Positions 33,688 to 50,606 of a DNA stretch of 64,000 bases are shown here, one piece after another. The position numbers and the translations under genes are program-made. The notes beneath the pieces are model-generated. The model searched no databases and was not told the origin of the DNA. It saw only the letters and a list, made by a program, of their open reading frames with translations. Numbering within the stretch: position 1 is the first letter of the stretch; every line of letters starts with the position of its first letter. Location of the stretch: NCBI RefSeq assembly GCF_000269985.1, contig NC_016109.1, positions 7,591,001 through 7,655,000 on the forward strand. The letters are read 5' to 3'. This DNA comes from Kitasatospora setae KM-6054. Its GTDB lineage: Bacteria; Actinomycetota; Actinomycetes; Streptomycetales; Streptomycetaceae.

Positions 33688-36459
33688 GTGGACGGGCGCG
33701 TACTCGGCGTGGTCAACCTTGAAGTTCCGGGCCGCAAGAGGATCTTCGGTCCGACCAAGCCGGCGGCGCTGTTCGGGCTGCTGGTGACTTCGACGGACCT
33801 CCGGTGCAGCCGCAAGGAGGTATTCGGTTTCCTGTGGCCCGAACGGCCCGATTACAGCCGCCAACTGGTGGAGCGGGCGATGTCCGACCTGCGGAAGGTG
33901 CTGGGAGAAGAGCACCTTCCGCAGACCGGCTCCGGTTTCTGCGTTCTCCGGGTCCCGCGCGAGAGCGTGGACTACCTCCGGTTCCTCGACGCGCTGGAGC
34001 GGGCCGAACGGCTCCCCTGGCCGGAACAGGTCGAGGTGCTGAGCCGTGCCCTGGCGGAGTTCTCGGACGAGGAGCCGCTCAGGGGAATCCCGGGGAAGGC
34101 ATTCGCCGCCCTCCGGCTGAAGCTGGGTGCGGCCCGACTGGCCGCCGTCCGGCGGCAGCTCGAAGCCGCGTGGCAGGCGCAGGACTGGAAGCTGCTGGGC
34201 GGCGAGGCCGAGCGGTGGTACCGGAGCCTGCCCGACGAGGACTGGCCGTTCCACTACTACTTACTGGCCCGCGGCCGGGAGCTGCCGCCGATGGAACTGG
34301 AGAAGATCGTCAAACAGTGGACGGGGCGGTTCGGGACGCCGGGAACGGCTCTGCAGCGGGTCATCGACTGGGTGCGGGGGGAAGTCCCCAGCCCGTCGAT
34401 CGCCGGGTCGGCCCAAGGGCCGAACCAGTTGCCGGCCCCGGGACGGCGGGTCCTCGGCCGGAGCGATCTGATCCGCTCGACCGTGGAACTCGTGCTGGCA
34501 CGCCAGGCGGCGGGGCGCGGGACGGTGATCGTGATCAGCGGCATGGCCGGCATCGGCAAGACCACCCTGGCCCTGGAACTCGCGGGGCGGCTCCGGGACC
34601 GGTTCTCCGACGGTGCGCTGTACGCCGAGCTCCGCGGTTTCGCCGGAGAGGCGACACCGCCCGCCGACCCGGAGCACGTGCTCGACCGCTTCCTGCCGGA
34701 ACTGCCGCCGTACACCCGGGCGGCCACCGCGGAGGACAAGGCCGCCGCACTGCGGTCGGCCCTCGCCCACCGGTCGGTGCTCATGGTGCTGGACGACGCC
34801 CGTGACGCCCGGCAGGTGGTGCCGCTGCTTCCCGGCGTGGGAATCAGCACGGTGATCGTCACCAGCCGGAGCAAGCTCCGCGACCTGCGGGCCAAGCACG
34901 AGGTGCAGTTCTGTCAGATCGAGGGCCTGGACGAGGAGAGCGCCATGGCGTTGCTCCAGGAACCGATCGACCCTCGGAACCGTGCGGCCCACACGCAGCC
35001 GCTCGCCGACCTGGTGAAGTCCTGCGCCGGCCACCCCCTGGCGCTCACCGTGATCGCCGGGCGCCTGGAGGAGCGTTCGCTCGGGGCGGTCGTCGAACTG
35101 GCCAGGCAGCTCAAGGAGGAGCGGCGGACGATGGAGGTGCTGTGCGATCCGCAGGGCGATCTCTCCTTCGAGCCGGCGCTCAACCTCTCGGTCAGGGCAC
35201 TGTCCGAAGAAGCCCGGAGGCTGCTCTGGCAGCTCGCGATCCACCCCGGCCCCAGCATCGGCTGGGGCGCGGTGATGGACCTCGGTCTGGCCGGCGAGTC
35301 GATCCGTGCCGACCGGGCCCTGGAGGAACTGGCCGCGGCGAACCTCGTGGAACTGCGTGACGACCGCTACCGGCTGCACGACCTGGTCAGGAACTTCGCC
35401 CGTTACCGCATCCAGCCCCTTCCCCCCGGCCCGTGCCGGGAGCTGGAGGAGGCGACGGTGCGCCAGGTCCTGGAACACCAGCTGCAGAACGTCCGGGCCT
35501 GCGACCGGCTGCTCGACGCGGGACGGACGCTGCCGGTGGGGGAACCGGACGAGGTCACGGTGGCCGAACCCGGCGGCCAGGACCGGGCCATGGAACTGCT
35601 CGACACCGAGTACGACACGGTCCGCGGTTGCATCGGGCTGGCGATCGCGCGAGGCGCGGAGCGCTACGTGTGGCTGCTGCCGATGGTGCTGGTGGCCTAC
35701 CAGTGGCGCCGCCACCACCTCACGGCCGCCCTGGAAGGGCTCGGCGCCGCGCGGGAGGCCGTCGAGCGCTTCGAGGGGGCGACGCCGGTGGACCGGGCGA
35801 TGGTGTACCGGATGCTGGCGGGCACCCACTGGCGGCGAGCCGAGTACGAGATCGCCGTGGGGCCGCTCAACAGGGCCGTTCGCCTCAGCTCGGGGGACGA
35901 CAGCGCGGTCGGCCGGCTGAGCCGCGCCCGTTCCCTGCACGCCCTCGCGCTCACCCTGCGCAAGCTCGCTGTCGCCACGGACGATCAGGAGTGCTGGGCG
36001 AGAGCCGAGGCGCACCACCTGACGGCCCTGGGTCTGTACCGGGAGCTCGCGGACCCGGTCGGGGAGGCCGCCGCGCTCGGTGGCATCGGCACGATCCACC
36101 TCGATCGCGGTGAACTGGACGAAGCCCTCGCCGTCTGCCGTGAAGCCCGGCTCGTCGTCGAGCCCACCTCGGACCAGGGCGGTCTGGCGGACGTGCTCTA
36201 CACCCTTGCCAAGGTCCACCTCGTGCGGGGGGAGCGTCCCGTGGCGCTTCCCCTGTTCGAGGAAGCGGGAGGGATCTACCGGAGGCAGGAGCACTGGCCG
36301 AACGAGGCGAAGGTGCTGTGGACCTATGCGGACGCCCTGGTGGCGGCCGGTCGGCGGGAGGAGGCGGTGGCGGTCCTGGAGCGGGTGGTGGTCCTGCGGG
36401 AGCACATGGGGGGCGAGGGCGTCCCCGAGGCGCGTCGGCGGATCGAGCCGCTGCGATGA
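33688..36459 (+). CDS. SARP-STAND regulator (winged helix, NB-ARC, TPR)
   Basis: A 923-residue multidomain protein. The N-terminus (about 1-100) is winged-helix-like with RKEVFGFLWPERPDYSRQLV and MSDLRKVLGEEHLP. A BTAD-like helical part follows (to about 215), then NB-ARC with ISGMAGIGKTTLALELAG near residue 282, LMVLDDARD and VIVTSRS, and a C-terminal TPR array. The N-terminus is divergent from true SARPs. The GTG at 33688 has GAGGGAGG upstream; ATG 33664 is an alternative. One TTA codon (34261-34263, codon 192) predicts bldA dependence. It is convergent with the kinase gene and close to the pPIWI-RE operon, for which it may be sensor or activator. Confidence 0.85.
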   Translation: MDGRVLGVVNLEVPGRKRIFGPTKPAALFGLLVTSTDLRCSRKEVFGFLWPERPDYSRQLVERAMSDLRKVLGEEHLPQTGSGFCVLRVPRESVDYLRFLDALERAERLPWPEQVEVLSRALAEFSDEEPLRGIPGKAFAALRLKLGAARLAAVRRQLEAAWQAQDWKLLGGEAERWYRSLPDEDWPFHYYLLARGRELPPMELEKIVKQWTGRFGTPGTALQRVIDWVRGEVPSPSIAGSAQGPNQLPAPGRRVLGRSDLIRSTVELVLARQAAGRGTVIVISGMAGIGKTTLALELAGRLRDRFSDGALYAELRGFAGEATPPADPEHVLDRFLPELPPYTRAATAEDKAAALRSALAHRSVLMVLDDARDARQVVPLLPGVGISTVIVTSRSKLRDLRAKHEVQFCQIEGLDEESAMALLQEPIDPRNRAAHTQPLADLVKSCAGHPLALTVIAGRLEERSLGAVVELARQLKEERRTMEVLCDPQGDLSFEPALNLSVRALSEEARRLLWQLAIHPGPSIGWGAVMDLGLAGESIRADRALEELAAANLVELRDDRYRLHDLVRNFARYRIQPLPPGPCRELEEATVRQVLEHQLQNVRACDRLLDAGRTLPVGEPDEVTVAEPGGQDRAMELLDTEYDTVRGCIGLAIARGAERYVWLLPMVLVAYQWRRHHLTAALEGLGAAREAVERFEGATPVDRAMVYRMLAGTHWRRAEYEIAVGPLNRAVRLSSGDDSAVGRLSRARSLHALALTLRKLAVATDDQECWARAEAHHLTALGLYRELADPVGEAAALGGIGTIHLDRGELDEALAVCREARLVVEPTSDQGGLADVLYTLAKVHLVRGERPVALPLFEEAGGIYRRQEHWPNEAKVLWTYADALVAAGRREEAVAVLERVVVLREHMGGEGVPEARRRIEPLR

Positions 36460-36474
36460 CGCGGCCGGGGCGGG

Positions 36475-37386
36475 TCACCACCGGTGCGGAACGGTCCGGT
36501 AGTACTCCGTGGGATCCGGTCGCAAGGGCTTCCTGGGGGCGGGGGAGTCGACCGGGGGGACGCGGGAACGCAGCGCCTCGTACACCTCGCGCACCGAGGC
36601 CGGACGGTTCTCCGGCCGCAGTTCGACCATGGCGAGGGCGACTTCGGCGAACTCCTTCGGGATCGCGTCGATCCGGTCACGGGGCAGCACCACCGGGTTC
36701 TCCGCCGTGAGGCCACCGCGTGTGCCGTCGTACGGGAGCCGCATGACGGTCATCTCCAGGAGGACGCAGCCCAGCGAGAAGACGTCGGCCCGCGGGGTCA
36801 CACCGTCGTCGCTCGAACGCAGTTGCTCGGGAGGCGCGTACCCGATGCTCCCGCACCCGTACTCGGTCCGCCGGCGGGCGGGTGTCGCCAGCCCCAGGTC
36901 GAGGAGCCTGAGACGGCCGGAGTGCTCCAGCATCGCGTTGTCGGGTTTGACGTCCCGGTGTACGTAGCCGCGCCGGTGCACGTCGTCCAGGACCTCGCAG
37001 AACTGGCCGATGACGGACGCCACGGTGCTGGTGTCCCGGACCGGTCGGAACAGGGACACCACGTCGTACAGGGGGACACCGTCGACGTATTCCATGACGA
37101 GGCACTGTCCTCCGCGGAATACGCCCTGGCCGATCAGCCTCGGGATGCCCGGGACCTCCGACAGGGTGGAGGTGCACTCGCCCTCGTCGGTGAGGTCGCG
37201 GCCCAGGGCGATGAAATGCCTCGTCGATTCGAACTGGCGCTCTTTCTGGACCTTGAGGGCCACTTTCTCGCCGGTCTTCCGGTGCCGACCGGTGTAGAGG
37301 TCGCCCTGGCCGGTGTCGAAACTGATCTGGTCCAGGACTTCGTAGTGCGACTCGATGTCGAAGGGGTCTTCGAAGCGCCCCGTCAT
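36475..37386 (-). CDS. Serine/threonine protein kinase
   Basis: A 303-residue Hanks-type kinase without a membrane segment. Visible elements: the ATP-site Lys in KVALKVQKE, catalytic loop YVHRDVKPDNAML, metal-binding motif LLDLGLA (DLG instead of DFG), and activation-segment end GYAPPEQL. The glycine-rich loop (ISFDTGQGDLYTG) is loose. It is cytosolic and ends 15 bp from the convergent STAND gene. Its start faces the nuclease gene across a 93-bp divergent spacer. Together this suggests a signalling role linked to the pPIWI-RE module, possibly phosphorylating the STAND regulator or a nuclease. Confidence 0.88.
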   Translation of the reverse strand: MTGRFEDPFDIESHYEVLDQISFDTGQGDLYTGRHRKTGEKVALKVQKERQFESTRHFIALGRDLTDEGECTSTLSEVPGIPRLIGQGVFRGGQCLVMEYVDGVPLYDVVSLFRPVRDTSTVASVIGQFCEVLDDVHRRGYVHRDVKPDNAMLEHSGRLRLLDLGLATPARRRTEYGCGSIGYAPPEQLRSSDDGVTPRADVFSLGCVLLEMTVMRLPYDGTRGGLTAENPVVLPRDRIDAIPKEFAEVALAMVELRPENRPASVREVYEALRSRVPPVDSPAPRKPLRPDPTEYYRTVPHRW

Positions 37387-37479
37387 GGCAACTCCCCGGT
37401 CGGGCGGTGGCGCCCTTCCCTGCGTGATTGATTCGTCCGAGTCGGCGACAGCGGCCGGCTCTTCCAAGAGGAGGAACGA

Positions 37480-39054
37480 GTGATCGATTCGTGGCAACCG
37501 CCCGACGGAGTCCGTCGGGTGTCCGATGTCATCACAGTATCCGTCGGCATGTTCAAAGGAGGAGGTTTTCGCTGCCCGGCCGCAGACGCCCTCAAGGCGC
37601 GCGGATACCGGCCGATCCGGAAAGTCGAACGCCAGCGTGAATCGTTGGAGCATTTCGCCTTCGGGCCTTTCATGGCCGCCCTCGACGCGCGCGGCCGCGG
37701 CGCCGGGGGACCTCCCGAGGCGGCCCTCGGCACCGAACGGCGCCTGCACGACGGCCTGCGGCAGTGGTCCGCGCACGGACTGGCGAGCTACCGGGAAGCC
37801 TTCCCCGCGGACCCCGACGGTGCTTCCTTGCACGAGGACGTGGAACCGTGGATCTACCGCCACCGGCCGCGCGACGGCGATCCGTGGCAGGCGCGGGAGT
37901 ACCGGCTGACGGTGTGGGGGCGACGCCTCCGGTCCACCGACGGCAAGCTGCGCGAACTCCGGCTGCCGGCCACCAGGCTCCGGGCGGGGGAACCGCCCGC
38001 CGGCTTCGTGGCCGCGGCGGCGCTGGTCCTCGCGGAGGGCGGGCCGGGGCCCGCTCCGGAGCGGGTGCGGATCGTCGAGTTCGCCCTGCTGGGAGGTGCC
38101 TCGCGCACCCTGTTCGACGGGACCCCGGAGGAGGCCCGCGCCCTGTACCGGGCCGGGGGCCGCGCGGCCCTGGCCTCCGTGCTGGACGGCCAGGAGTACC
38201 GCCCGGGTTCCTCCTGCGTCGAGTGCCCGTTCCTCGCCGTCTGCCCCGCCCTGCGCCGTGCGCCCGGATTGCTCGGGGTCGGATCGGACGGGCGGCCCCG
38301 GCGCAGCTGGTCGGTCACCAACGGGCGTACCTACCGGGCCTGCCCGGCCCGGGACCACATGCGCCGGCTCCACCTGCCGGCGCTGGACGCGGTCGAGCAC
38401 GACCCGACCGCGGAACGCGGCCGGGCGCTGCACGCCTACCTGGCCCGGTGCCACGGAAGCGGGTCGGCGCGTCCGTGCACGGTGGAGGTGCCGGAATCGT
38501 GGGTGCCACCCGGATACGACCTGTCGGCGGGCGAACGCGAGCTCGGCGCCCGGCTGCTGCGCCACCACGCGGCGGTCTGCCCGTTGCGACTCACCCGGGA
38601 CGGCAGCGACGTGCGCCCCGAAGCCCGGGTGGTCCGCCACGACAGTGCCGCGGACGTGATCGTCATCGCCGCACCCGACCTGCTCTACCGGGACGCCGGC
38701 TCCTGGGTGTGGCGGGAGACCAAGACCTCGTCCCGGCGGCGCGCTTCGAACCTCCCGTTGCTGGAGCAGTACCCGCAACTGGCCCTCGCGACGCTGATGT
38801 CGGTCCGAGGCGACCTCGGTGGCGCGCCGGACCGGGCGAGAATCGAACTGGAGGTGCTGCGGCCGGACGGCGCGGACTTGGAGGTGATCGATCCTTTCGC
38901 GGCGGAGACCCGCGCCGCGGCGGAGCGGATCGTGCGGGAACTGGTGCAGGGGTGGCTCCAGGACGATCAGTACCCGGCGAACCCCGGCCGCGGCTGCGCG
39001 CGCTGCGAGATGTCGCGCTGGTGCTCGAAGTCGGCCCCCCGGCAGGGGGTGTGA
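37480..39054 (+). CDS. PD-(D/E)XK nuclease with Fe-S-type cysteines (RecB/Cas4-like)
   Basis: A 524-residue protein, first gene of the pPIWI-RE operon. The nuclease core is IIAAPDLLYRD-type sequence followed by WVWRETKTSSRRR, that is Asp...Glu-x-Lys, then LEQYPQLALATL. Cysteines near the C-terminus (CARCEMSRWC) form a Cas4/AddB-like iron-sulphur pattern with an upstream Cys. A second set, CVECPFLAVCPAL near residues 245-260, may bind zinc or be a duplicated cluster. GTG at 37480 has an excellent AGAGGAGG. The stop overlaps the next start (TGATG). Probable role: DNA end-processing or cleavage in the module. Confidence 0.8.
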   Translation: MIDSWQPPDGVRRVSDVITVSVGMFKGGGFRCPAADALKARGYRPIRKVERQRESLEHFAFGPFMAALDARGRGAGGPPEAALGTERRLHDGLRQWSAHGLASYREAFPADPDGASLHEDVEPWIYRHRPRDGDPWQAREYRLTVWGRRLRSTDGKLRELRLPATRLRAGEPPAGFVAAAALVLAEGGPGPAPERVRIVEFALLGGASRTLFDGTPEEARALYRAGGRAALASVLDGQEYRPGSSCVECPFLAVCPALRRAPGLLGVGSDGRPRRSWSVTNGRTYRACPARDHMRRLHLPALDAVEHDPTAERGRALHAYLARCHGSGSARPCTVEVPESWVPPGYDLSAGERELGARLLRHHAAVCPLRLTRDGSDVRPEARVVRHDSAADVIVIAAPDLLYRDAGSWVWRETKTSSRRRASNLPLLEQYPQLALATLMSVRGDLGGAPDRARIELEVLRPDGADLEVIDPFAAETRAAAERIVRELVQGWLQDDQYPANPGRGCARCEMSRWCSKSAPRQGV

Positions 39055-40151
39055 TGGAGGAGCGGGATCCCGGCGCGTACCGCGGGCTCGCTGCCGTCGT
39101 CGCCTCGGCGGGCGAACGGGGAAGCCTCCGGTCGTTCGCGCTGCCCTACCCACCCCCGGCGCAGCGAGCGCTCGACCGGATGGTGCTGCGCTGCCTCGAC
39201 CTGGGAGAGGAGCCGCCGCTCAGCGTGCCGGGACTGTTGGAGTGGTGCCGTCGGCGCCCGGCGGGGGACCGGGTCTTCGGAGTGCCCCCCGGCCTGCTGG
39301 ACGCCGGGGCGAGGCTGGTCCATCCGGTGGGAGTCACGCCCACCCGCACCTGCCTGGAACTCGCCTCCCACGAACGGCGGGGAGGGATCGAGCAGGAGGC
39401 CCGGGCGCTGCTGGCCGACTTGGCGAGGCGGTGCAGGAACACCGAGCAGTACCGGCGGAGCCGACGGTTCCTCGTCCGGCACGTCGCGGTCCACCAGAAG
39501 GACCGGTTCGAACGGGGATGGGACAAGGAGGTCTGGGTGCGGGTGCGCGAGCTGTACCAGCCAGTGCCCGAATTCCTGGTGGTCGCCGGGAAGTTCCTGC
39601 GGTGCGGCACCTGCCGACTGCCGGCCCTGCTCGGCGGACGGCGAGCCCCGGAGCACGGCGCGCCGGTCGCGGGCCCGCAGACGTGGTGCGAGGGCGAGCG
39701 CTGCCCCGCGGGGGAGCGGATGGAACTGGTCCGCGACCCGGAGCGGGTGCTGCTGCTGCGGCGTGCGCTGCGGATGTTCCTCGCGCTCCCGTCGGCCGTC
39801 GAGCACGCGGGGCTGGAAACCCTGGCCGCACACGGACTCGTTCACGAGGCGGTCCCGGAGGAACTCGGCTCGTACCGACTGCCCGGCCTGGGCGCGTACA
39901 CGGTCCACTTCTACGACCGGGTCCAACCGGTCCTGCTGGCCGATAGGTTCACCGACCTGGTGGACCGGCTGCCGGGGACGCCCGTCCTGGTCCTCCCCCG
40001 GCGATCAGCCGGGTCCACCGAATTCCGCAGGGCTCTCGCAGCGGCGCTTCCCGACGAGTTGAGGGCAAGGACGCTGATCAGCGCCCCGCAGGAGCTGGCG
40101 CGACGGATCCACCAGCATCACACCGGCCGCAGGAAGGGAGCCCATGCGTAG
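39054..40151 (+). CDS. pPIWI-RE module REase-type protein, catalytic site apparently altered
   Basis: A 365-residue protein with a helical N-terminus, a zinc-ribbon-like middle (FLRCGTCRLPALL and WCEGERCPAG), and a C-terminal domain that follows the REase of pPIWI-RE islands: LPGLGAYTVHFYDRVQPV, a VLVLPRRS strand, then LISAPQELARRI. In the REase as I recall it, a V-D-V-K-D strand carries the catalytic residues; here the matching stretch reads PVLLADRF, with no Asp-x-Lys, so it may be inactive. It overlaps the helicase gene by 8 bp. The alignment is from memory and should be tested by profile search. Confidence 0.6.
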   Translation: MEERDPGAYRGLAAVVASAGERGSLRSFALPYPPPAQRALDRMVLRCLDLGEEPPLSVPGLLEWCRRRPAGDRVFGVPPGLLDAGARLVHPVGVTPTRTCLELASHERRGGIEQEARALLADLARRCRNTEQYRRSRRFLVRHVAVHQKDRFERGWDKEVWVRVRELYQPVPEFLVVAGKFLRCGTCRLPALLGGRRAPEHGAPVAGPQTWCEGERCPAGERMELVRDPERVLLLRRALRMFLALPSAVEHAGLETLAAHGLVHEAVPEELGSYRLPGLGAYTVHFYDRVQPVLLADRFTDLVDRLPGTPVLVLPRRSAGSTEFRRALAAALPDELRARTLISAPQELARRIHQHHTGRRKGAHA

Positions 40152-43100
40152 CCTCACCCCGCCCTTGCACCGACTGACCAGCGAGATGAGACAGTTCGCC
40201 GGCCCCCGGCTGCGGGGGCCGGCAGCCGAGTACCTCTGCCAGATCGAACTCGGCCTGTACCTCCAGCAGCGTCTGACGCCGGACGCCCCGGCCGCGCACG
40301 CCTGGGTGTTCTTCAGCGGCTACGGCTTCGCGAAGGCGTACCTGGCCGACCCGCCGGAGGACGTCGAGCGGGTTCTGCGGATCGCCCGCCACTCACTCTG
40401 GACCCTGGGCCGGAACCGGGCCTGGCGGGACGCCCTGGAGCACTACCGGCGAGTCGATCCCGCACTCCGCGGCTACGAGGTCCCGGACCCCGGACGCCCG
40501 CCCGTACGGTGCGAGACCGGGATCGGGCGGGAGCGCTGGCAGGTCTACGACGGCCTGCTGCGAACGGCCCCGCCACTGGCGGGCTCCCGGCAGCGAGTCG
40601 CCGGTGCGGGCCGTCACGGGTTCCCGGTCAGTCGGGCGATGGCTGTCGTCGAGCTGCCGGAGGTCCCCGAGGGCCCACCGGCCAGCCATGACCTGGACCT
40701 CGGGCCGGCCGGGGGAGGCGAGGGCCTGACCTTCCGGATGGACGACCTCAGGAGCACCGCGGCCGAGATGGACGCCATCCACGCACGGACCGGCTCCGGG
40801 AAAGCACCGGAATGGGAGCGGAGGCTCCGGAACTTCGAACTGTCCAACGCACAGATCGGCACCTTCCAACCGGCCGACGAGTTCACGGTCGACGGCATCC
40901 AGCACCTGCTCGGCATCGTCGGAGCGGGCAAGAGCACGCTGCGGGACGTGATCGCGGTCCACCTGGCCCGCCTCGGGAAGCGGACGACCGTCGTCGTGCC
41001 CGATGTCGCCGAAGTGCTGAAGCTGGTCGAGTCGTACAACCTGTACACCGAGGGCGCGGCGGCCCCCGTCCTCGGCGCCGGCGGGCGCGAACGCCACGCC
41101 CAGAGCCTGCACCGCAGATTGGCCGGGCGGGGCGAGCAGCGGCTACTGGCCCACGATGACCCGGCCTTCGCCTACCTGGGGACGTCGTGCCTGCTGAACA
41201 CCATGCTCGGCGGACCCTCCGGCGAGCCCCTGGCCTTCGGCGAGGCCCCGTGCTCCCGGCTGCGCCCTCCGGCCCCGTCCGCGCGCGGGGCCGGACGATC
41301 GCTGCGGTCGGAGTGGCAGAAGCAGTCGCTCGCCTGTCCCTACTGGTCGGTCTGCCCCCGGCACCACGGGGCCAGGGCGCTGGTCGGCGCTCTCATCTGG
41401 GTGGCGACGATGCCGAGCCTGCTCGACTCGTCCCCGCCGCGTCCGCAGAACGGGGAACGCATCCGCTACCTCGAACTCGCCTGTCGTCGGAGCGATCTGG
41501 TGATCGTCGACGAGGCCGACCGGGTGCAGATGAATCTGGACCGGGCATTCGCTCCGGCCGTCCTGCTCGCCGCCGACGAGCAGCGCGGATTCATCGACCG
41601 GCTCAACAAGCACAAGATCCGTGAGCTCACGGCCGGCGGCAGGACCCAACTCTCCGACCGGGACGTCGCGGTCTTCTGCGGCGCGCTCAACACCGTCGTC
41701 GCGGCCACGGACAGGCTGCACGCCATGCTCGTCAGCCAGTACCGCCTGCGCCGGTGGACGAGGTTCGGGTTCTTCAGCGCCTGGACCCTGCAACTCGCCC
41801 TCCTCGACGAGCGGTACCCACCCGGCGGGGACGACGGAGCGGCCCGATCGGACCGAACCCCGCGGGAGGCGCTCGGGGACCTCTTCGACGCGTTCCGGGA
41901 CAACCCGTTCGGTGACCGCACCCGACACACCGAAGAGGACTTCGCCGACCTCACGGCGCTGCTCAACGAACTCCTGCACACCGGCAACCCGGAGAAGACC
42001 AGGGAATCGCTCCTGGAAGTGATGGAGGACCGCTTCCGACTCGACGAACGCTTCCGGACCCGGCAGCGGCAGCAGTACGAGGAGCGCGTGGCGCAGTGGC
42101 AGGAGGAGAGCGCGGAGCGCGGGCACGGGAACGGCAGGCGCGGGAAGGCGGTCGACGGGCCGCCGCGGACCCCGGAGCAGTGGTTCGAGGACCTGGCCGA
42201 CCGCCTTGAGTTCACACTGATCCTGAGCGCCCTCGAACGGCGGCTCGCACTCGTCAACACCATGTGGCCCCCGGTCGAGGCGGCACTCGGCCTGGGTTTC
42301 AACGACATGTACCGCAGGCCGTTCGACTACGGCCCGATGGTGCCGGAAGCGCCGATGGGAAACGTGCTCGGCTTCCAGTTCCGGGTCACCGGGGAGGACG
42401 GTGAGGGCGTGCGCGGCGGCGACCTGGTCTTCTTCCGCTGCAGCGGTGTCGGACGGGAACTGCTGAGGGCGATGCCCGCGCTGTCCTCGGTCGACTGCCG
42501 ACCGGGTGCCCACGTGCTCCTGATGTCCGGCAGCAGCTGGGCGGGCCGGTCCAGCCGGTACCACGTCGCGGTACCCGTCGGCGTGATCATCGAACCGGTG
42601 CCGGCGGTGACCGAACGGATCGCCGTCGAGAGCGAGATGCGCTTCGAGTTCGTCGACGACGGCGACGAGAGGATGAGGATCTCCGGAACCGATCCGGAGG
42701 ACCGGCCGGCCAAGCTCCGGCGCCTGATCGGCCGGCTCGGCGCCGGGGCGGACGAGGCGGAGAACGGCGGCCCGCTGGAGGAGGAGCTGTTGTCCCTGCC
42801 GCCCGGCCGTGACCAGATCCTGCTGCTGGTCGGCAGCTACGAGGAGGCCGCAGCGGTCGCCGACACCCTGCACAACCTCAACCCCCGCTGGCGGGACCGC
42901 GTGCTGCGCCTGGTCTCGGACGACCAGGAGATCGACGAGGACGCCGAGGCCCCGTCCTCGCACCGGGCCCGGGTGCTGCGGCGCGGGGACGTCGAGCACC
43001 TCAAGGACCTCAACGCGGACGTGCTGGTCGCACCACTCCTGGCCGTCGAACGCGGCCACAACATCCTCAACGACGACGCCGTGGCGGCGATCGGGACCGT

Positions 43101-43626
43101 CTACTTCCTGGCCCGGCCGAACCCGCACCCCGACGACCTGTTCCTCGCGGTCCACGCCGTCAACGACTGGATCGTCCGGGCCCAGCAGGACGGTGACTTC
43201 GCGCGGTGGGTCGCCTCGGCCGAGACGATCGAGGCCGGCGCCGAGGAGGTGCGCCGCCGCGCGAGGTCGCGCTGGTACCGGTTGCTGCGGCGCTCGACGG
43301 CCTGGAGCCGCCTGGGCGACGACCGCGAGCAGATCACCTGGGACGTCCTGGTGCTGATGTGGCAGGTGATCGGCCGCCTGGTCCGCGGCGGGGTGCCGGC
43401 CCGGGTGGTCTTCGTCGATGCCGCCTTCGCCCCCGGCCGGGCGGCCGAACCCCCGGTCGCGGACAGCCCGGAGAGCAGCCTGCTGCACAGCATCCTCGCC
43501 GTCCTGGACCCCTACTTCGAGGACGGGGCACGACCCGCGGACGAACAGTTCATCGCCCGGGCCCTCTACGCGCCGCTGCGAAGCATGCTCGGCCGCTGCC
43601 TGGCCCGACCCCTGCCGGCGGCGTGA
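40144..43626 (+). CDS. DinG/XPD-like helicase of the pPIWI-RE module
   Basis: A 1160-residue superfamily 2-type ATPase. Walker A is GIVGAGKST (near residue 260) and the DEAD-box-type Walker B is VIVDEADRV. Between them are cysteines in CSRLRPP and ACPYWSVCPRH plus an earlier TSCLL, in the place of the XPD/DinG iron-sulphur domain. The C-terminal helicase half contains LLLVGSYEEAAAVADTL and APLLAVERGHNIL. ATG at 40144 has GGAAGGGAG. Expected role: 5'-3' DNA or R-loop unwinding for the PIWI protein. Unusually long N-terminal 250 residues probably carry a module-specific domain. Confidence 0.82.
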   Translation: MRSLTPPLHRLTSEMRQFAGPRLRGPAAEYLCQIELGLYLQQRLTPDAPAAHAWVFFSGYGFAKAYLADPPEDVERVLRIARHSLWTLGRNRAWRDALEHYRRVDPALRGYEVPDPGRPPVRCETGIGRERWQVYDGLLRTAPPLAGSRQRVAGAGRHGFPVSRAMAVVELPEVPEGPPASHDLDLGPAGGGEGLTFRMDDLRSTAAEMDAIHARTGSGKAPEWERRLRNFELSNAQIGTFQPADEFTVDGIQHLLGIVGAGKSTLRDVIAVHLARLGKRTTVVVPDVAEVLKLVESYNLYTEGAAAPVLGAGGRERHAQSLHRRLAGRGEQRLLAHDDPAFAYLGTSCLLNTMLGGPSGEPLAFGEAPCSRLRPPAPSARGAGRSLRSEWQKQSLACPYWSVCPRHHGARALVGALIWVATMPSLLDSSPPRPQNGERIRYLELACRRSDLVIVDEADRVQMNLDRAFAPAVLLAADEQRGFIDRLNKHKIRELTAGGRTQLSDRDVAVFCGALNTVVAATDRLHAMLVSQYRLRRWTRFGFFSAWTLQLALLDERYPPGGDDGAARSDRTPREALGDLFDAFRDNPFGDRTRHTEEDFADLTALLNELLHTGNPEKTRESLLEVMEDRFRLDERFRTRQRQQYEERVAQWQEESAERGHGNGRRGKAVDGPPRTPEQWFEDLADRLEFTLILSALERRLALVNTMWPPVEAALGLGFNDMYRRPFDYGPMVPEAPMGNVLGFQFRVTGEDGEGVRGGDLVFFRCSGVGRELLRAMPALSSVDCRPGAHVLLMSGSSWAGRSSRYHVAVPVGVIIEPVPAVTERIAVESEMRFEFVDDGDERMRISGTDPEDRPAKLRRLIGRLGAGADEAENGGPLEEELLSLPPGRDQILLLVGSYEEAAAVADTLHNLNPRWRDRVLRLVSDDQEIDEDAEAPSSHRARVLRRGDVEHLKDLNADVLVAPLLAVERGHNILNDDAVAAIGTVYFLARPNPHPDDLFLAVHAVNDWIVRAQQDGDFARWVASAETIEAGAEEVRRRARSRWYRLLRRSTAWSRLGDDREQITWDVLVLMWQVIGRLVRGGVPARVVFVDAAFAPGRAAEPPVADSPESSLLHSILAVLDPYFEDGARPADEQFIARALYAPLRSMLGRCLARPLPAA

Positions 43627-43666
43627 CCGCCGGGCCATCCCCCGATCAGTCGGAGAAAGGACTCCC

Positions 43667-46372
43667 ATGTACCGAACGATCCGCACCGTGGCGTACGAAC
43701 CGGATCCCGCGCACGGAGCATGGCAGGAGCCACTGCGGGTGCTCCGCCTCGGAGACGGCCTCCACGCCGAGCTCCTCCGCCGCCGGCCGCCCGCCCACGG
43801 GGAGGACCGGCCGGCCCGGCTTCCCGTGCGGCACCTCAACTCCCTGCTGCGGGCGACCGCTCCCGGCGTGCTGGCGACCGGGCGCGAGGCCGGCGTCGAC
43901 GGTCGACTGCCCTGGCTGTACGCCCGGCAGGTGGTGCCACCGGAGGTACTGGCCCCGGTACTCGGCACCTGGGCCGCCGGGCTGACCGGCCCCGACGGTG
44001 AGGACGACGGGACGCTGGAGGAGGAACTGCTGGCGGACCCGGCGGCCGCTGCGGTGTCGCTGCCGCCCTGGGAACGCGAACACGTGGACCTCACCGAGAC
44101 CGTGATCTCGGCCGGGGGGACCGCCGAGCCCCGGCAACGGCTCTACAACCTCCTCCCGGAGGCCGTCGCCTTCCGCCTCGCCGAGAGCCCGTACCGGACC
44201 GGCGGCACCTCGTTGCGCTTCCGCGTCGTGAGCTCCGGAAAGGGCGTCGAACTGGTCTCCTGGCCACCGCAACAATACGAGCGGCGCGGACGGACCTGGT
44301 ACTACTCGGCCCGGCTGACCGTCACGGTGCAGACCGTGCCCTTCGCCCCGCGGTTCCGCGTGTACGTCGCCACCGGCGTGCGTCGATGGGCCACCCACCT
44401 GGAAGCGGCGCCCCGCGCGCTCAACGGCGCCACGGTGCTGCTGGACGCCCCGCTGCCGTGGCCCGAGAACCAGGACCGCGGCCACCGCATCGCCGAGAAC
44501 GCCCTCGGGTTCGACCGGCGGGCCGAACGACTCGTCTGGCGCCGCCGCAGTCCCGCGCTGCTGCTGCCCGAACTGGACATCATCCGGAGGTACCCGGAAC
44601 CGGGCGAGCTGTTCGAGTCGCCGGAGAAATGGCTGACCGGACACCGCGGACTGGCCGCCGGGATCGTCTACCACCCGGTGCTCGGCCCGCACGAGGTCGG
44701 CCCCGGGCTGATGCCGCGGGAACGGTCGGAGCTGGACGCCTGGGTGGAAGCGGGACTGCGGCCGATGCTGCGCAGGGCGGGCGACCTCACCAGGGTCACC
44801 AGGCACAACACCCCTTCCCTGCTGCCGCGTTCGGTCAAGCGGACGGAACCCGACACCCGTGAGGCGCAGAAGGCCATGCTGCGCCGGACGGCGCTCGCCC
44901 GAGCCCTCCACGGCCGCCCGCTGGACATCGAGATCGTCTGGCAGACGCCACGGACCCGGGACGCCCTGCTTTCGGCCCTGCCCGGCGTCATCGGACTGCC
45001 CCCCGGCGGTGGGACCGCCACGGACGACGGTCACCGATGGGAGGCCGACGGCGTCCTGATCAGGGTGCGCACCCGGCCCGCCGGAGAACTGGTCGACGCC
45101 CTGCCGGTCTCCGCGAACCGGAACCGGCGCCGGGCCCTCCGGTTGGCCGAGGCGGTCGCCGGCCGCTGCGCCCTGGTGACCGGTCAGGTCGGTGCACGGC
45201 CGACCGGTGTCGGTGTCGTGATCGCGGAGATCGCCGGGAAGGACCGGTACGCCGCCGCACCGGACACCGATCCCAAGCACGCGTTGCGGATCGCCTGGGC
45301 CCGCCAAGGACGCCTGGTCCAGTTCATCAACCTCCCGGAGGACGGCCAGGCCGGCCAGGCCGGCCTGGAACACCGGGCGAAGTGGACCTGGCTCGACGCG
45401 TTCCGCCAACTCGGCGCGATCAGCCCGCCCGCGCACCGGGTCGGGGCCGGCATCCCCGGAGACCTCCAGTACGTCGGACTCTGGACGGTGCGCCACACCC
45501 GGAAGGGGCCGACGAAGTGCCCGGCGCGCCGGATCGTTGCCGTGCGGATGAGGCCGGGCCGCGAGAGCGGGGCCGCCGAGGGCTGGGACACCGAGCGGGC
45601 CGAGTGGGTGCCGTACCCGCAGCTGCTGCTGGCACTCGCCGACCCCTCCCGCGAGGCGGACCCGCGGCACAAGGAGGAGCGCGAGTCCGGTGAGCGTGGT
45701 GCGGAGCAGCGCTGGCAGGCCGAAGCGGAACGCCAGATCCGTGCCGTCCTCTTCCAACTCCGCGAACGGCCCACCCTGCTGCTGGTGAGTTCGGGCAACC
45801 TCCGCCAGTGCTGGCCGAGGCTGCGCAACGGCGCCCTGAGCCGCGACACGCTGGGCTTCGGAACGGGACCGGACCAGCGGGCCGCGGTCTACGGGGCCGA
45901 TCTGCGGGTCGTCCTGGTACGGGACGCCAACGGACGGGGCGAGGTGGCGGACTGGTACGCGCACGACTCGCTCACCAAGGTCGGCTTCGCCGAGGGCGTC
46001 TGGGCGTCGGAGGCCCCGGACAACCGGGTTTTCGCCAGCACCGCGCGCCGACCGCACACCGCGGCGGGCTCGCCGAAGGACCTGATCAAGCTGGTGCCGA
46101 CCGCCAAGTCCCGGACCGCCCCCGGGAAAACCGCCTGGAACCCGGCGCTCCTGGAGATGACCGTGCTCGGCTGTCTCTCGGAGCAGGCCCTGGCACGCTC
46201 CGGGCGCGCCGATGCCGTGCCCGACCGCCCGGCGGAATGGGCCACCCTGACCCATCAACTCCGCTACCACGACGACTACCCGCCGCTGGCCCTCCCCCTC
46301 CCGCTCCATCTCGCGCGCCTGGCCGGCGAGTACGTCCTGCCACTCGCCACGGACGAGGGGACGGCGTCGTAG
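43667..46372 (+). CDS. pPIWI-RE family protein (divergent prokaryotic PIWI)
   Basis: A 901-residue protein that I assign to the pPIWI-RE family: N-terminal module domain (about 1-400), a MID-like segment (around VVIAEIAGKDRY), and a C-terminal RNase H-like PIWI domain ending ALLEMTVLG, then LRYHDDYPPLALPLPLHLA. The family is named for conserved Arg and Glu residues; LEMTVLG supplies a plausible Glu and LRVVLVRD a plausible Arg. The usual PIWI catalytic DEDX is not evident. ATG at 43667 has AAAGGA. The known family operon also contains a DinG helicase and an REase, both found immediately upstream. Probable nucleic-acid-guided or R-loop-directed defence. Confidence 0.8.
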   Translation: MYRTIRTVAYEPDPAHGAWQEPLRVLRLGDGLHAELLRRRPPAHGEDRPARLPVRHLNSLLRATAPGVLATGREAGVDGRLPWLYARQVVPPEVLAPVLGTWAAGLTGPDGEDDGTLEEELLADPAAAAVSLPPWEREHVDLTETVISAGGTAEPRQRLYNLLPEAVAFRLAESPYRTGGTSLRFRVVSSGKGVELVSWPPQQYERRGRTWYYSARLTVTVQTVPFAPRFRVYVATGVRRWATHLEAAPRALNGATVLLDAPLPWPENQDRGHRIAENALGFDRRAERLVWRRRSPALLLPELDIIRRYPEPGELFESPEKWLTGHRGLAAGIVYHPVLGPHEVGPGLMPRERSELDAWVEAGLRPMLRRAGDLTRVTRHNTPSLLPRSVKRTEPDTREAQKAMLRRTALARALHGRPLDIEIVWQTPRTRDALLSALPGVIGLPPGGGTATDDGHRWEADGVLIRVRTRPAGELVDALPVSANRNRRRALRLAEAVAGRCALVTGQVGARPTGVGVVIAEIAGKDRYAAAPDTDPKHALRIAWARQGRLVQFINLPEDGQAGQAGLEHRAKWTWLDAFRQLGAISPPAHRVGAGIPGDLQYVGLWTVRHTRKGPTKCPARRIVAVRMRPGRESGAAEGWDTERAEWVPYPQLLLALADPSREADPRHKEERESGERGAEQRWQAEAERQIRAVLFQLRERPTLLLVSSGNLRQCWPRLRNGALSRDTLGFGTGPDQRAAVYGADLRVVLVRDANGRGEVADWYAHDSLTKVGFAEGVWASEAPDNRVFASTARRPHTAAGSPKDLIKLVPTAKSRTAPGKTAWNPALLEMTVLGCLSEQALARSGRADAVPDRPAEWATLTHQLRYHDDYPPLALPLPLHLARLAGEYVLPLATDEGTAS

Positions 46373-46722
46373 ACCGTCACCCAGCCGGCGAGGGCAAGGT
46401 CCCCTACTGCCGGTCGCGTACGGGCCCGTCCCGGAAGGGCCGAAGCCCTCGAGCAAGGGTGCCCATCAGATCGAATCACGCTCCCCGTCCCTGACACCAC
46501 TTCGTCTCTCCTGCACTGTCGATCTCCTGACGTGTCGCCAGGTACCGGAAAGGTACCGTCGCAGGCGGTGCGGCCGGTTGCTGCCCGTTGCCGTGCTGCT
46601 CGGGGCGGCTTGTCGGTCCGGCGCCTCATGATGGTGAGTCGGGTACGCAAACGCCCGTGTCCCCCGTGGCCGTGCCACAGATGTCCCACAACCCTGCCCG
46701 CCCTGGGCGGACGGCGAAGCGT
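46373..46722. other. Gap between pPIWI-RE gene and IS982-family element
   Basis: 350 bp without a convincing gene. It contains two ggtacc palindromes 11 bp apart around 46540-46560. It may hold the pPIWI-RE terminator or remains of the region displaced by the insertion. Confidence 0.4.
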
Positions 46723-46743
46723 CTAGATGATTGATGCGAAGGG
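46723..46743 (+). repeat. IS982-family left inverted repeat
   Basis: ctagatgattgatgcgaagg plus one further g; an exact reverse complement of the right end at 47705-47725. Confidence 0.95.
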
Positions 46744-46789
46744 CTTGCTGGCGCGCATGAGATGAAGCGAGGGAGTCCAAAGGTCGGTT

Positions 46790-47704
46790 GTGACGCCTGA
46801 CCTGGACTCCCTCGCGACCGCACTCTACGTGAAGACCGACGACCTGCTGAAGCAATCGCCGCATCTGGCACCCTGGCGGCCCGCGGTCGGCCTCAAGCCC
46901 CGGCTCACGGACGCCGAACTGGTCACCCTCGCGGTGATGCAGGCCCTGCTCGGCTTCACCTCCGAACGCCGCTGGCTCCGCCATGCCTCGTCCCACCTGC
47001 GGCACCTGTTCCCCTACCTGCCCGGGCAGTCCGGCTACAACCGGCGGCTGCGCAAGGCCGCCGACCTCATCGCCCACGTCAACCGCCTGCTCGCGAGGGA
47101 CACCTCGCTGTGGAGCGACAGCGTGTGGGTCGTGGACTCCACACCGGTGGAGTGCGGCCGCTCCCGGGAGACCGCCAAGCGCTCCGACCTGGCCGGATGG
47201 GCCGAGCACGGCTACTGTGCCAGCCACTCCCGATACTTCTGGGGCCTTCGCCCGCACCTGGTGTGCACCCTGCACGGCCTGCCCGTCGCCTTCGCCCTCA
47301 CCGGAGCCAAGGCCGACGAACGCCAGACCCTGCTCGGCATGCTCCACGCCGAATCCGACCTCGTCCGCACCCTCCCGGGCCAGACCCTCATCGCCGACCG
47401 GCACTACTACGGCGCCGCATTCGAGCGCGAACTGGCCGAATGGGGACTCCACCTGCTGCGGCCGGCCCGCAAGGGCGAGCCCCCACGGGCCGGATCCAGC
47501 CTGTTCAAGCCCCTGCGACAGGTCATCGAGTCCGTCAACCAGACCTTCAAGGCCCAACTCGACCTCGAACGCCACCAGGGCCGCACCCCGACCGGGGTGA
47601 CAGTCCGCGTCCTGCAACGCATCCTCGCCCTGACCACCGCGATCTGGCACAACGACCGCACCGGCCAACCCGTCATGCGCTCGCTGACCGCCTACGACCA
47701 CTAA
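46790..47704 (+). CDS. IS982-family transposase
   Basis: A 304-residue DDE transposase, full length for IS982. It begins PDLDSLATALYVKTDDLL; the first Asp lies in VWVVDSTPVE, the second in TLIADRHYYG, and the Glu in RQVIESVNQTFKAQLDLE. The start is GTG at 46790, inside the left end. The stop touches the right inverted repeat. No frameshift or internal stop, so it is probably active. Confidence 0.93.
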   Translation: MTPDLDSLATALYVKTDDLLKQSPHLAPWRPAVGLKPRLTDAELVTLAVMQALLGFTSERRWLRHASSHLRHLFPYLPGQSGYNRRLRKAADLIAHVNRLLARDTSLWSDSVWVVDSTPVECGRSRETAKRSDLAGWAEHGYCASHSRYFWGLRPHLVCTLHGLPVAFALTGAKADERQTLLGMLHAESDLVRTLPGQTLIADRHYYGAAFERELAEWGLHLLRPARKGEPPRAGSSLFKPLRQVIESVNQTFKAQLDLERHQGRTPTGVTVRVLQRILALTTAIWHNDRTGQPVMRSLTAYDH

Positions 47705-47725
47705 CCCTTCGCATCAATCATCTAG
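47705..47725 (-). repeat. IS982-family right inverted repeat
   Basis: Exact reverse complement of 46723-46743. It ends only 17 bp before the hsdS start codon. Confidence 0.95.
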
Positions 47726-47742
47726 CGGAAACGAGATCGGGC

Positions 47743-49140
47743 ATGCCCGCTCCCTTGGACCTCCCACCGGGCTGGTCTCACCTGCGGATCGACCAAATCG
47801 CCCAGGTGCAGGCCGGCAGCGGCAGCGTCCGTCCCCCCGGTCCCGGTATCGCACTCCATGCCCAGCTGACGTCGGCGAACGTCAGCTGGGCCGGTCTGGA
47901 TCTGCGGATGCTCGCGGAGACGTGGTTGACGCGCCATCAGGCGACCCGGCACCGGTTGGCGCCAGGTGACATCGTGATGACCGGGAAGTCAGGGAGTCCC
48001 CATCTGGTGGGGCGTTCCGCGCTGTGGAGCGGCGAGGTGGAGGGCTGCTGCCTGAACGGCAGTCTCATCCGCGTGCGTCCAGGCCGGGGTGTGCATCCCG
48101 GTTACCTTCACCGAGTCCTGTACTACGACGCGCTCTGCGGTGCGTTCGCCGGGCAGCTGAAGGGGAACTCGCGTCTCAAGCATCTCGACACCGGAACAGT
48201 GCGAGCGTGGCGCGTGCCCGTTCCGCCGCTGCCGGTGCAGCAACGCATCAGCGCAGCCGTCGAAGGCATGCTGGCGGACATCAACGCAGGTGAGGCGTTG
48301 CAAGCAGCCACCCGGAGTGACCTGCGCATGTTGTGGGACAGCGTCCTCGACGCCGTGGCTGACGGGACTCTCGACAACCGGCCGCCGGAAAGCGCTTCGC
48401 ACCACCGCATCCACGAGGTCGCTTCCGTCGTCGGCGGAGTCCAGGCGCCCCGAACAGTGGAGGACGGTGTCCGTCACACCTACCTGCGTGTCGCCAACAT
48501 CGCGCCCGAAACCGTCGACCTCGACCAGGTCAAGCACCTCACCATCCCCAGGGAAAGAGTGTGCTTCCTCCAGCACCACCTTCTGCAGAAGGACGACCTC
48601 GTGGTCGTACGCCAGAACGGCAGCCCTGACCGTCTGGGCCAGGCCGCACTCTGGCACGGGCAGCTGCCCGACATCCTCATCCAGAACCACCTGGCTCGCA
48701 TCAGGCCCTACGGCATCGACTCGAGATACCTCGAGCTGGTCTGGAACGCCCCCAGCACCTTGCGCCCGCTCCGTCCGCTTGCCACGTCGACCACGGGTAG
48801 CCGAACACTGAGGTTGGACGACATCCGGGCCGTGCGGGTACGCGTCCCAAGCGCTGCGGCCCAGGCGGAACTGGTCCGGGCCGCTGACCGCTGGAAAGGG
48901 CATGTGGACGCGGTCGGTGCGCTGCTCGATAACGCGAGCCGGGCAGCTGCCGCGCTTCGTCTGTCCGTTCTCGCCCGGGCGTTCTCTGGCCGCCTCGCCC
49001 CGGGCGGGACGGCGGCAGACGGTGACGGGCAGCTCTGCACCGTGAGCACACCGGGTGTTACCCGGCCCAGGCCAGTGGCCGGCCACGCGTCCGGAGTGTC
49101 AGCCGATGCCCTGTACGAGCAGCAGGAGTTCGACTTCTGA
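47743..49140 (+). CDS. hsdS: Type I restriction-modification specificity subunit
   Basis: A 465-residue specificity protein with two target-recognition halves. Each ends in a helical spacer: VPPLPVQQRISAAVEGMLAD around residue 165 and VPSAAAQAELVRAADRWKG around 380. The N-terminus LPPGWSHLRIDQIAQV is the family's normal opening, so it is complete despite the IS ending 17 bp upstream. The ribosome site is weak (GAGAT), and the native promoter may have been displaced by the element. Gene order is S then M with a TGATG overlap. It determines the bipartite DNA sequence methylated by the HsdM partner. Confidence 0.9.
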   Translation: MPAPLDLPPGWSHLRIDQIAQVQAGSGSVRPPGPGIALHAQLTSANVSWAGLDLRMLAETWLTRHQATRHRLAPGDIVMTGKSGSPHLVGRSALWSGEVEGCCLNGSLIRVRPGRGVHPGYLHRVLYYDALCGAFAGQLKGNSRLKHLDTGTVRAWRVPVPPLPVQQRISAAVEGMLADINAGEALQAATRSDLRMLWDSVLDAVADGTLDNRPPESASHHRIHEVASVVGGVQAPRTVEDGVRHTYLRVANIAPETVDLDQVKHLTIPRERVCFLQHHLLQKDDLVVVRQNGSPDRLGQAALWHGQLPDILIQNHLARIRPYGIDSRYLELVWNAPSTLRPLRPLATSTTGSRTLRLDDIRAVRVRVPSAAAQAELVRAADRWKGHVDAVGALLDNASRAAAALRLSVLARAFSGRLAPGGTAADGDGQLCTVSTPGVTRPRPVAGHASGVSADALYEQQEFDF

Positions 49141-50606
49141 TGGGAAACCGTCCTGTGCCCGAGAACTTGCCTCTTGACGCGGCGCCCTCGCTGGCGGACC
49201 GCTTGTGGGGTCGCCTGGAGCAGGTCAACGACGGGGGCCTCCGTCTCGGCCGTGCTCACCTGCAGACCGCAGCGCACCTGTTGTTGTTCCGGCAAGCCCA
49301 CCGCCGACTCGCCAGGAGAGCGGCCGAGGCGACTGCTGCGGGCCCGGCTGCGTTGGCTGCGCTAGCTGAGGCATGGGCTGATCTCACTACCAGCGCCGAC
49401 ACCTACGGAACCTATCGGCGGTTGCTGCACGATCTGAGCGCCGCCCCCGAGACGGCGCTGGGCGCCGTGTTCGTCGACGCACACCAGAGCATCGACGACC
49501 CGGTCGTGCTGCGGGAGCTCATCGCTGTCCTGGACGAGGGCCTCGCCCGGGATGCCGGCAGCGTGTCAGCCGACGACGAGGGCGAAGTCCTGTCCGACCT
49601 CCTGGAACGAGCCCTGCAGCATTTGCGGGGCAGCGACCCCGACTACTACACGCCGCGTGCCCTCGTCGACCTCGTGGTCGCCACGGTGCGACCGGGCCCG
49701 GACGACACTATCACCGACCCGGCGTGCAAGGCTGGCAGCTTCCTCATCGCGGCGCACCGGTACATCCGTGAGCACGATCCCGGCACCGAACCCCGGTCCG
49801 CAGGCGGGCGCATCAGAGGGAACGAGTCCGCCCTCATCGGCCTCGCCGGTGCCAACCTGTTGCTGCACGGCATCACCGAGCACGCCGACTGCCCGGGCGT
49901 GACGAACGAGAGCCCCTTCGCCCTCCCACCGATGCCAGGGGCGACGGTCGTGATCGCCAACCCGCCCTTCGGCACGATGAAGGGCGGGGAGAAGTCCGTG
50001 GTCGAGTCGCGCGCCGACCTTCCGGTCCGGACGAGCAGCAAAGCGCTCGACTACCTCCAGCACATCATGTCGGTCCTCCTGCCAGGAGGACGGGCCGGAG
50101 TGATCGTGCCGGACAGCGTGCTGTTCGCTACGGGAGCCGCACGGGACGTACGACGTCTGCTTCTGCAGACCTTTGACGTCCACACCCTGATCCGGCTCCC
50201 TGCCGGTGCCTTCCCCACCGCCCGCGGCGTCCGCACCAGCATCCTCCTCTTCGACAGGCAGCCCACCGAGCGGAGGGGGCCGGGAGGCCCGCTGTGGGTC
50301 TACGACCTGCGCACGGGGTCCTCACCGACTGGTGGTGGCCACCTGGACACCGAAGGCTCCGCCGAGATCCTTCAGGTACTTCGCATGGGCGACCGCAGCT
50401 CACGGCAGGAAAGCGCCGACCACCGGTTCAGGCCGTTCATCTACGACGAACTCATGAAGCGCGAGGACACCAATCTCGACCTCGTGTGCCCGCCGCTGGA
50501 ACCGCCCGTCCCCGACAGTCGGCCACCAGGAGTCATTGCTGCCGAGATCACGGAGAAGCTGAAGGCTGCTCTGAGTCACTTCGAAGCTGTCACCGAGGCA
50601 CTGTGA
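49140..50606 (+). CDS. hsdM: Type I N6-adenine DNA methyltransferase subunit
   Basis: A 488-residue methyltransferase. The SAM-binding motif is TDPACKAGSFLIAA and the catalytic motif IV is IANPPFGTM; YYTPRALVDLVV precedes them, and LLPGGRAGVIVPDSVLF and PTARGVRTSILLF follow. It is typical of HsdM. It methylates adenine at sites chosen by HsdS. No hsdR gene is present in the window, and the gene that should follow is cut off by an IS630-family element, so this may now be a methylase-only system or require an HsdR elsewhere. Confidence 0.92.
   Translation: MGNRPVPENLPLDAAPSLADRLWGRLEQVNDGGLRLGRAHLQTAAHLLLFRQAHRRLARRAAEATAAGPAALAALAEAWADLTTSADTYGTYRRLLHDLSAAPETALGAVFVDAHQSIDDPVVLRELIAVLDEGLARDAGSVSADDEGEVLSDLLERALQHLRGSDPDYYTPRALVDLVVATVRPGPDDTITDPACKAGSFLIAAHRYIREHDPGTEPRSAGGRIRGNESALIGLAGANLLLHGITEHADCPGVTNESPFALPPMPGATVVIANPPFGTMKGGEKSVVESRADLPVRTSSKALDYLQHIMSVLLPGGRAGVIVPDSVLFATGAARDVRRLLLQTFDVHTLIRLPAGAFPTARGVRTSILLFDRQPTERRGPGGPLWVYDLRTGSSPTGGGHLDTEGSAEILQVLRMGDRSSRQESADHRFRPFIYDELMKREDTNLDLVCPPLEPPVPDSRPPGVIAAEITEKLKAALSHFEAVTEAL

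Follow-up and report, generated by a model that had tools for sequence, protein, structure and literature searches.

Which protein cuts DNA in a pPIWI-RE island whose PIWI protein appears unable to slice and whose restriction endonuclease (REase) domain has lost its catalytic motif? The question is raised by a four-gene operon of Kitasatospora setae KM-6054, found in the 64,000-nucleotide stretch of contig NC_016109.1 that was analysed here (the window, whose numbering is used below). In 2013, Burroughs, Iyer and Aravind described pPIWI-RE islands of three genes in strict order, as well as PIWI genes standing alone, and predicted that the islands are guided restriction systems (PMC3702460; this paper and the others cited here by PMC number are represented by parts of their text). 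The operon in the window has one gene more, and the initial annotation took it for a variant of a little-studied defence system and a strong candidate for new biology.

Organization of the operon

The genome of this strain is a single contig of 8.78 Mb with 73.8% G+C. The genes for PD, RE, DinG and PIWI follow one another in that order, with touching ends, over 37480-46372 of the plus strand (Table 1); the start of RE overlaps the stop codon of PD, and the gap between DinG and PIWI is 40 nt. All open reading frames of the tight four-gene operon are present as annotated, and all four are named by both Pfam and PADLOC. Against Pfam, PD matches PF12705 (3e-23), RE matches pPIWI_RE_Y (1e-37) and pPIWI_RE_REase (1e-13), DinG matches pPIWI_RE_Z (1e-52), and the 901-residue protein, rightly assigned to pPIWI-RE, matches the pPIWI_RE_X (4e-119), MID (9e-32) and RNaseH (2e-79) profiles. 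The PADLOC matches are to PprPDDEXK (1e-166), PprRE (4e-80), PprDinG (9e-269) and PprPIWI (E=0). In NCBIfam none of the four proteins has a significant match, Rfam has none within 33000-50600, and sequence searches of solved structures returned nothing useful for PD, PIWI or DinG. The Zn-ribbon cysteines of RE are at 185, 188, 213 and 218. DinG has GIVGAGKS at 257, DEAD at 456 and QVIGRLVR at 1074, which we take to be helicase motifs, and cysteines at 349, 370, 398 and 404 that presumably form its cysteine-rich region.

Table 1. Features of the four-gene operon, in window coordinates
Feature	Coordinates	Strand	Remarks
PD, tandem Fe-S PD-(D/E)XK nuclease (PprPDDEXK; predicted), 524 aa	37480..39054	+	GTG start, GGAGG at 37470-37474 before it
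PD N-half (aa 19-262)	37534..38265	+	second fold copy; own cysteine set C32...C246-x2-C249-x5-C255; no catalytic residues retained (judged by eye)
PD C-half (aa 268-518)	38281..39033	+	predicted live nuclease: H318 (motif I), D400, E413, K415, Q433; C288, C506, C509, C515
RE (PprRE): Y domain, Zn-ribbon cysteines, REase domain	39051..40151	+	start GTG 39051 or ATG 39054
REase domain of RE (aa 249-361)	39795..40133	+	D...(D/E)xK site absent; R276, H286, Y288 at the three positions
DinG-type helicase with N-terminal Z domain (PprDinG)	40144..43626	+	8-nt overlap with RE
pPIWI-RE protein (PprPIWI), 901 aa: X, MID and RNaseH domains	43667..46372	+	AAAGGA before ATG
W606 of PIWI	45482..45484	+	presumed first slicer aspartate position
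S708 of PIWI	45788..45790	+	presumed second slicer aspartate position

The operon shares with the island of 2013 the REase-DinG-PIWI order, the overlapping ends and the Y, Z, X, MID and RNaseH domains, so that a PIWI protein with X, MID and RNaseH, a Z-domain DinG with a cysteine-rich region and a partner with Y, Zn-ribbon and REase domains are all found in the expected gene order. It differs from that island in its extra first gene, PD, and in the loss of the REase catalytic motif; an active D...(D/E)xK site is not stated as defining in the parts of PMC3702460 available to us. PD is thus additional to the published three genes, as had been noted, but the variant cannot be called unlisted. PADLOC-DB 2.0 already has PprPDDEXK, and all four protein families were in that defence database in 2023. 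We found no difference between the operon and its Ppr set, all four models of which match strongly; the library comes without a description of mechanism or of REase loss. The literature searched at overview level, where the name 'PPR' is ambiguous, did not yield the four-gene form.

The PIWI protein

In its structure model (mean pLDDT 84.0), PIWI resembles Thermus Argonaute from end to end (Z 18.0, 4.9 A, 517 residues), and the N-terminal X region would therefore be part of the Argonaute-like fold. The DEDX tetrad of slicing Argonautes is absent: W606, S708 and H881 stand at the presumed positions, which were placed by alignment, by predicted strands and by the spacing of D525, D610, R639 and E718 in PsPIWI-RE as given in the available text of PMC10991935, not by superposition. 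E521, tried as the first slicer position, was rejected because it sits in the MID domain, whereas W606 follows the start of RNase H. Across 124 PIWI proteins the first position is W in 108, H in 9, Y in 6 and F in 1, and never D; the second is D in 23, and the last is H in 121. R747 and E830, invariant in 31 PIWI rows, fit R639 and E718 of PsPIWI-RE by spacing only (PMC10991935). Like the window protein, PsPIWI-RE of Pseudomonas stutzeri is clustered with a DinG and a restriction enzyme, but it cuts DNA via D525 and D610 (PMC10991935); the positions that we match to these by their spacing are occupied by W606 and S708 in the window. On model and alignment, PIWI is predicted to be a whole long-Argonaute fold without either slicer aspartate. 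The first aspartate is missing from islands without PD as well, and the non-slicing state of PIWI is therefore probably older than PD or independent of it.

The REase domain of RE

The description of RE as REase-like holds for the fold family, but the catalytic motif is missing from the window protein. The three catalytic positions are D, D and K in 86 of 132 aligned RE proteins; in the window they are R, H and Y, and its REase domain contains no D-x(6-22)-[DE]xK at all. The initial annotation could not see this loss, and it shifts the role that the extra gene probably plays.

Among distinct islands, meaning those left after identical PIWI sequences were removed, the REase is degenerate in 42 of the 107 that bear PD (the window and the damaged locus L071 included) and intact in the other 65. 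It is intact in all 15 distinct islands that lack PD and degenerate in none of them (Fisher p 0.0012 with kinship ignored). An independent-pairs test of PD and REase loss comes down to one pair, and the losses are three events on the PIWI tree and two on the PD tree. On the PIWI tree they affect a clade of 33 rows to which the window operon belongs, another clade of 8 rows and a single locus, L150. Throughout the 33-row clade all three catalytic residues are gone, and 32 of its 33 members are without D-x(6-22)-[DE]xK in the domain, the single match sitting elsewhere. Loss is partial in the 8-row clade (GDK, GEK or GDR, or DDH in L126) and doubtful in L150, where ExK is still present. L126 lies in the same genome as the window and is a second complete four-gene island (6820000-6838000 on the contig; 5738-15083 of the locus) with REase residues D, D and H, so that neither of the two four-gene islands of this genome has the full REase motif. 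Fourteen further cyanobacterial and Chloroflexota loci, two of them already in the sample, all have an intact REase and no PD that we could see; they were found with the REase model, which biases them to intact REases, and were excluded from the Fisher test. The REase is also intact in L183 and L185, two divergent islands.

In 15 close pairs the dN/dS of the REase domain is 0.14-0.49, similar to that of the remainder of the RE gene, so purifying selection still acts on the dead domain, which is not decaying freely. Its dN/dS exceeds that of PD in 11 of the 15 pairs.

PD, the added nuclease

PD does have the two clusters of cysteines and the Glu-x-Lys core that had been noticed in it (Table 1), and they are nearly invariant. 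Of 121 PD sequences, among them 10 from islands whose PIWI sequence is a repeat and 4 genes that stand alone, 120 keep D400, E413 and K415, and only the broken L071 does not; 120 of the 121 keep all eight cysteines. From their pattern we infer that the cysteine sets bind Fe-S. In the structure model of PD (mean pLDDT 91.2), the best fold match of the C-half is AdnA (Z 12.8, 4.4 A, 234 residues), with further matches to the putative exonuclease 3l0a (Z 12.2), to ACE1 (Z 12.0 and 11.1), and to RecE, Dna2 and Cas4; Foldseek gives E values of 4e-7 for AdnA, 2e-5 for ACE1 and 9e-5 for the Cas4-type SSO0001. Fold, D...ExK and C...C-x2-C-x5-C of RecB/AdnA/Cas4-type Fe-S nucleases are all found, and PD is a predicted nuclease of this type. 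In the model, strands, helices and cysteines follow each other in the N-half as they do in the C-half, but the N-half has a glycine at the presumed aspartate position (placed by eye); a profile comparison of the two halves gives a probability of 70%, against at most 0.61% in 20 shuffles. As modelled, PD is a duplicated RecB/AdnA/Cas4-type fold with a dead first copy. The model is also matched by residues 2-171 of PDB 9kqh_A, a DinG from Finegoldia magna (Z 6.7, Foldseek E 9e-4), which hints at a DinG with an attached nuclease of PD-like fold.

The motif-I residue of PD is H in 41 of the 42 REase-degenerate islands and in 11 of the 65 REase-intact ones, and D otherwise, a difference that amounts to one change on the PD tree. 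That the lineage with the best-kept REase also altered motif I of PD suggests a division of labour, by way of a single event.

Distribution and history of the four-gene island

A survey of 297 Streptomycetaceae genomes gave 48 strong PprPDDEXK rows and 44 full-length PprPIWI places, the latter in 42 genomes. For 44 of the 48 PD rows there is a PprPIWI place on the same strand, 4.6-5.2 kb downstream, and each of these 44 places holds PD, RE, DinG and PIWI, with DinG in two frames in L162. Before pairing we left out 8 PprPDDEXK rows out of 56, with scores of 20-32 bits and E no better than 2e-7, and 10 PprPIWI rows out of 65, which were second pieces or weak rows (three of these, G005, G254 and G115, were examined later). 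The nuclease is therefore not found mostly alone, and is instead a conserved part of these islands. Four PD rows have no such partner. Two of them represent a single gene, split in two, in a divergent PD-RE-DinG island of genome G118 with an intact REase (L127, G118:C1:3372000-3390000); the other two, L128 and L129, belong to another kind of module. L127 is interrupted by two transposase-like ORFs, one of them between the PD halves.

The idea that unpaired Streptomycetaceae PIWI matches are all stand-alone genes or fragments was rejected after 14 such places had been examined. Seven are three-gene islands without PD and with a more distant PIWI (L130, L131, L179-L182, L184), two are the more divergent L183 and L185, four are PIWI fragments and one is a broken DinG-PIWI remnant. 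A contig scan with one peptide pattern covered the best 80 of 102 relatives and gave 72 four-gene loci (with PIWI in two frames in L074), five three-gene islands (four cyanobacterial, one from Ktedonobacterales) and three damaged loci. Among these best 80 of 102, the four-gene hosts include Streptomyces, Nocardiopsis, Amycolatopsis, Nonomuraea, Umezawaea and Nocardia. As for the damaged loci, L103 has no PD and a stump of RE, L071 has a broken PD and DinG, and L097 (Nocardia) joins PD model positions 1-252 to PIWI 319-891; with RE and DinG gone, L097 is read as an internal deletion, and a PD-PIWI fusion was rejected.

Farther afield, 296 Actinomycetota genomes gave PprPIWI matches in 5 and PD matches in 3, all of the window's family, and 151 Chloroflexota genomes gave just four PD matches of 19-23 bits. 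Seven genomes or records with three-gene islands had no PD match, in a search that had no match anywhere and so does not by itself prove absence, and 50,697 phage records had no match to PD or PIWI. On the PIWI tree (123 rows, L103 left out) the presence of PD is one change, and PD and PIWI distances correlate with r 0.95 over 106 islands. We infer that PD was acquired once and thereafter inherited with the island; far from being an occasional add-on, it is the mark of a single clade.

Plasmids carry three of the three-gene islands examined, two of them in Nostoc and one in Streptomyces. The island on Streptomyces plasmid NZ_CP134205.1 (L042, 6766-11359) is followed by two more touching genes, for a hypothetical protein and an annotated 'restriction endonuclease', perhaps another nuclease added to an island. 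A tandem Fe-S nuclease also occurs in a second type of module, at four loci of which two are on plasmids (L044, L045, L128, L129). This module consists of the nuclease, a protein of ~267 aa and, on the opposite strand, an ImmA/IrrE-type metallopeptidase; the ~267-aa protein of L044 has a weak PIN_4 match, below the cut-off.

Discussion

The four-gene variant is real, conserved and already catalogued, and it belongs to a system that is known but little tested; what is new here is REase-site loss in the presence of PD, the retention of the resulting pseudo-nuclease, and PD's tandem fold. The island most likely serves defence against plasmids or phages. We propose, while giving it slightly less than an even chance, that the actinobacterial four-gene pPIWI-RE island is an anti-plasmid or anti-phage system in which PD has taken over DNA cutting from the REase. 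The pPIWI-RE protein, guided or else sensing an RNA-DNA hybrid, would recognise the nucleic acid of an invader without cutting it, DinG would open the hybrid or track along it, RE would stay as a structural or nucleic-acid-binding adaptor, and PD, as a RecB/AdnA/Cas4-type Fe-S nuclease, would cut the exposed strand. PD would have joined first, after which the REase site may have become dispensable and been lost two or three times, in the window among others. We place the cutting with PD because it alone among the proteins of the window operon has a complete predicted nuclease site, and if the operon cuts DNA, PD should be the cutter.

Several findings support this proposal: the presence of PD at 44 of 44 PIWI places, the retention of its D, E and K in 120 of 121 sequences, REase loss in 42 of 107 islands with PD against 0 of 15 without, the dN/dS of the REase domain, the correlated PD and PIWI distances, the Argonaute fold of PIWI, the AdnA-, ACE1- and Cas4-like fold of PD, and the defence-type neighbours of the operon. 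It also has a precedent, since Ryazansky et al. report that inactive pAgos often come with nuclease partners, Cas4 among them, that are thought to replace slicing (PMC6299218, available text). Counting against it are the small number of loss events, the somewhat faster evolution of the REase domain relative to PD, and PsPIWI-RE, which clusters with a DinG and a restriction enzyme and yet slices (PMC10991935). PD does not force REase loss, as 65 of 107 PD-bearing islands keep the site. Nor is a dead PIWI special to the four-gene form, because the first slicer aspartate is absent from 124 of 124 proteins, those of PD-less islands included; this makes the proposal, and the bolder one that follows, slightly less probable.

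More tentatively still, and leaning somewhat towards doubt, we speculate that the island has been rebuilt, with a slicing-dead Argonaute-like protein and a helicase directing a captured AdnA/Cas4-type tandem nuclease, and with the REase turned into a selected, non-catalytic adaptor at least twice. If true, guide-directed defence would have been caught in the middle of a nuclease swap, and relatives with a live and with a dead REase are at hand for comparison. Islands with three genes and a live REase, with four genes and both sites, and with four genes and a dead REase form a natural series in which each nuclease can be tested by comparison. The literature searched contained no in vivo defence test of pPIWI-RE islands.

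The main rival, which we consider unlikely, is that PD makes guides, trimming invader DNA to short strands that load pPIWI-RE, while the target is blocked or cut otherwise. Its attraction lies in the structural nearness of PD to ACE1, an Argonaute-associated Cas4 family protein (PDB 9iab, 9iac; known here from the PDB titles) that resembles PD, by fold match, as an Fe-S-type RecB/Cas4 nuclease beside an Argonaute-like protein; PD differs in having two fold copies, the first of them dead, and its partner is a pPIWI-RE protein with DinG and RE. In Synechococcus, an incoming plasmid does better when either SeAgo or a Cas4-like nuclease has been lost (PMC10653904, available text), and PsPIWI-RE accepts external guides (PMC10991935). 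A PD devoted to guides would, however, leave the window operon without a predicted target-cutting enzyme, and PD-less islands presumably get their guides without it. If the fold link to ACE1 is functional, the pairing of an Argonaute-like protein with a Cas4-type nuclease may have arisen more than once.

It is less probable again, and in our judgement quite doubtful, that the loss of the REase site is unrelated to PD, the activity having become unneeded for some other reason and PD serving a separate task such as debris clearing or regulation. Loss in just two or three events and the survival of both sites in 65 islands would suit such a history, as would the sampling, with fewer PD-less islands and 14 of them found via REase-model or weak PIWI matches. 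But loss is seen in none of the 15 PD-less islands, long as their branches are, nor in the 14 further ones, and 41 of the 42 degenerate REases occur beside an H-type PD, though by one change on the PD tree. We regard as very improbable a role of the island in DNA replication or repair with PD as an end-processing nuclease as in AdnAB, because, although AdnA is the best fold match of PD and deletion of piwi-re in P. stutzeri alters ciprofloxacin sensitivity and cell division (PMC10991935), the island is patchy (42 of 297 Streptomycetaceae genomes), occurs in broken copies (L071, L097, L103, L127), has three-gene relatives on three plasmids and sits among defence-type neighbours. As that deletion concerns the sole tested relative, we keep some small weight on a non-defence role. 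PD also differs from AdnA and AdnB, whose nuclease domains its C-half resembles most, in lacking a UvrD-type helicase; its operon has DinG instead.

The neighbours in question, all within about 12 kb of the operon, are a Ser/Thr kinase, type I specificity (HsdS) and methylase (HsdM) genes, a PIN-domain protein and an ORF similar to OloA and OloB, a set that fits a defence island. The kinase gene (36478-37359, minus strand) is divergent from the operon, and its best PADLOC match is PD-T4-6 (1e-40). HsdS and HsdM are encoded at 47713-50603 on the plus strand, and HsdR had no match among the scanned neighbouring ORFs. A DDE transposase follows the operon at 46790. The ORF of 1398 aa at 54424-58617 (plus strand) holds an OloA-like region (624-1100, 1e-19) and an OloB-like region (1171-1346, 2e-7) in one frame, and is possibly a fused Olokun-like system.
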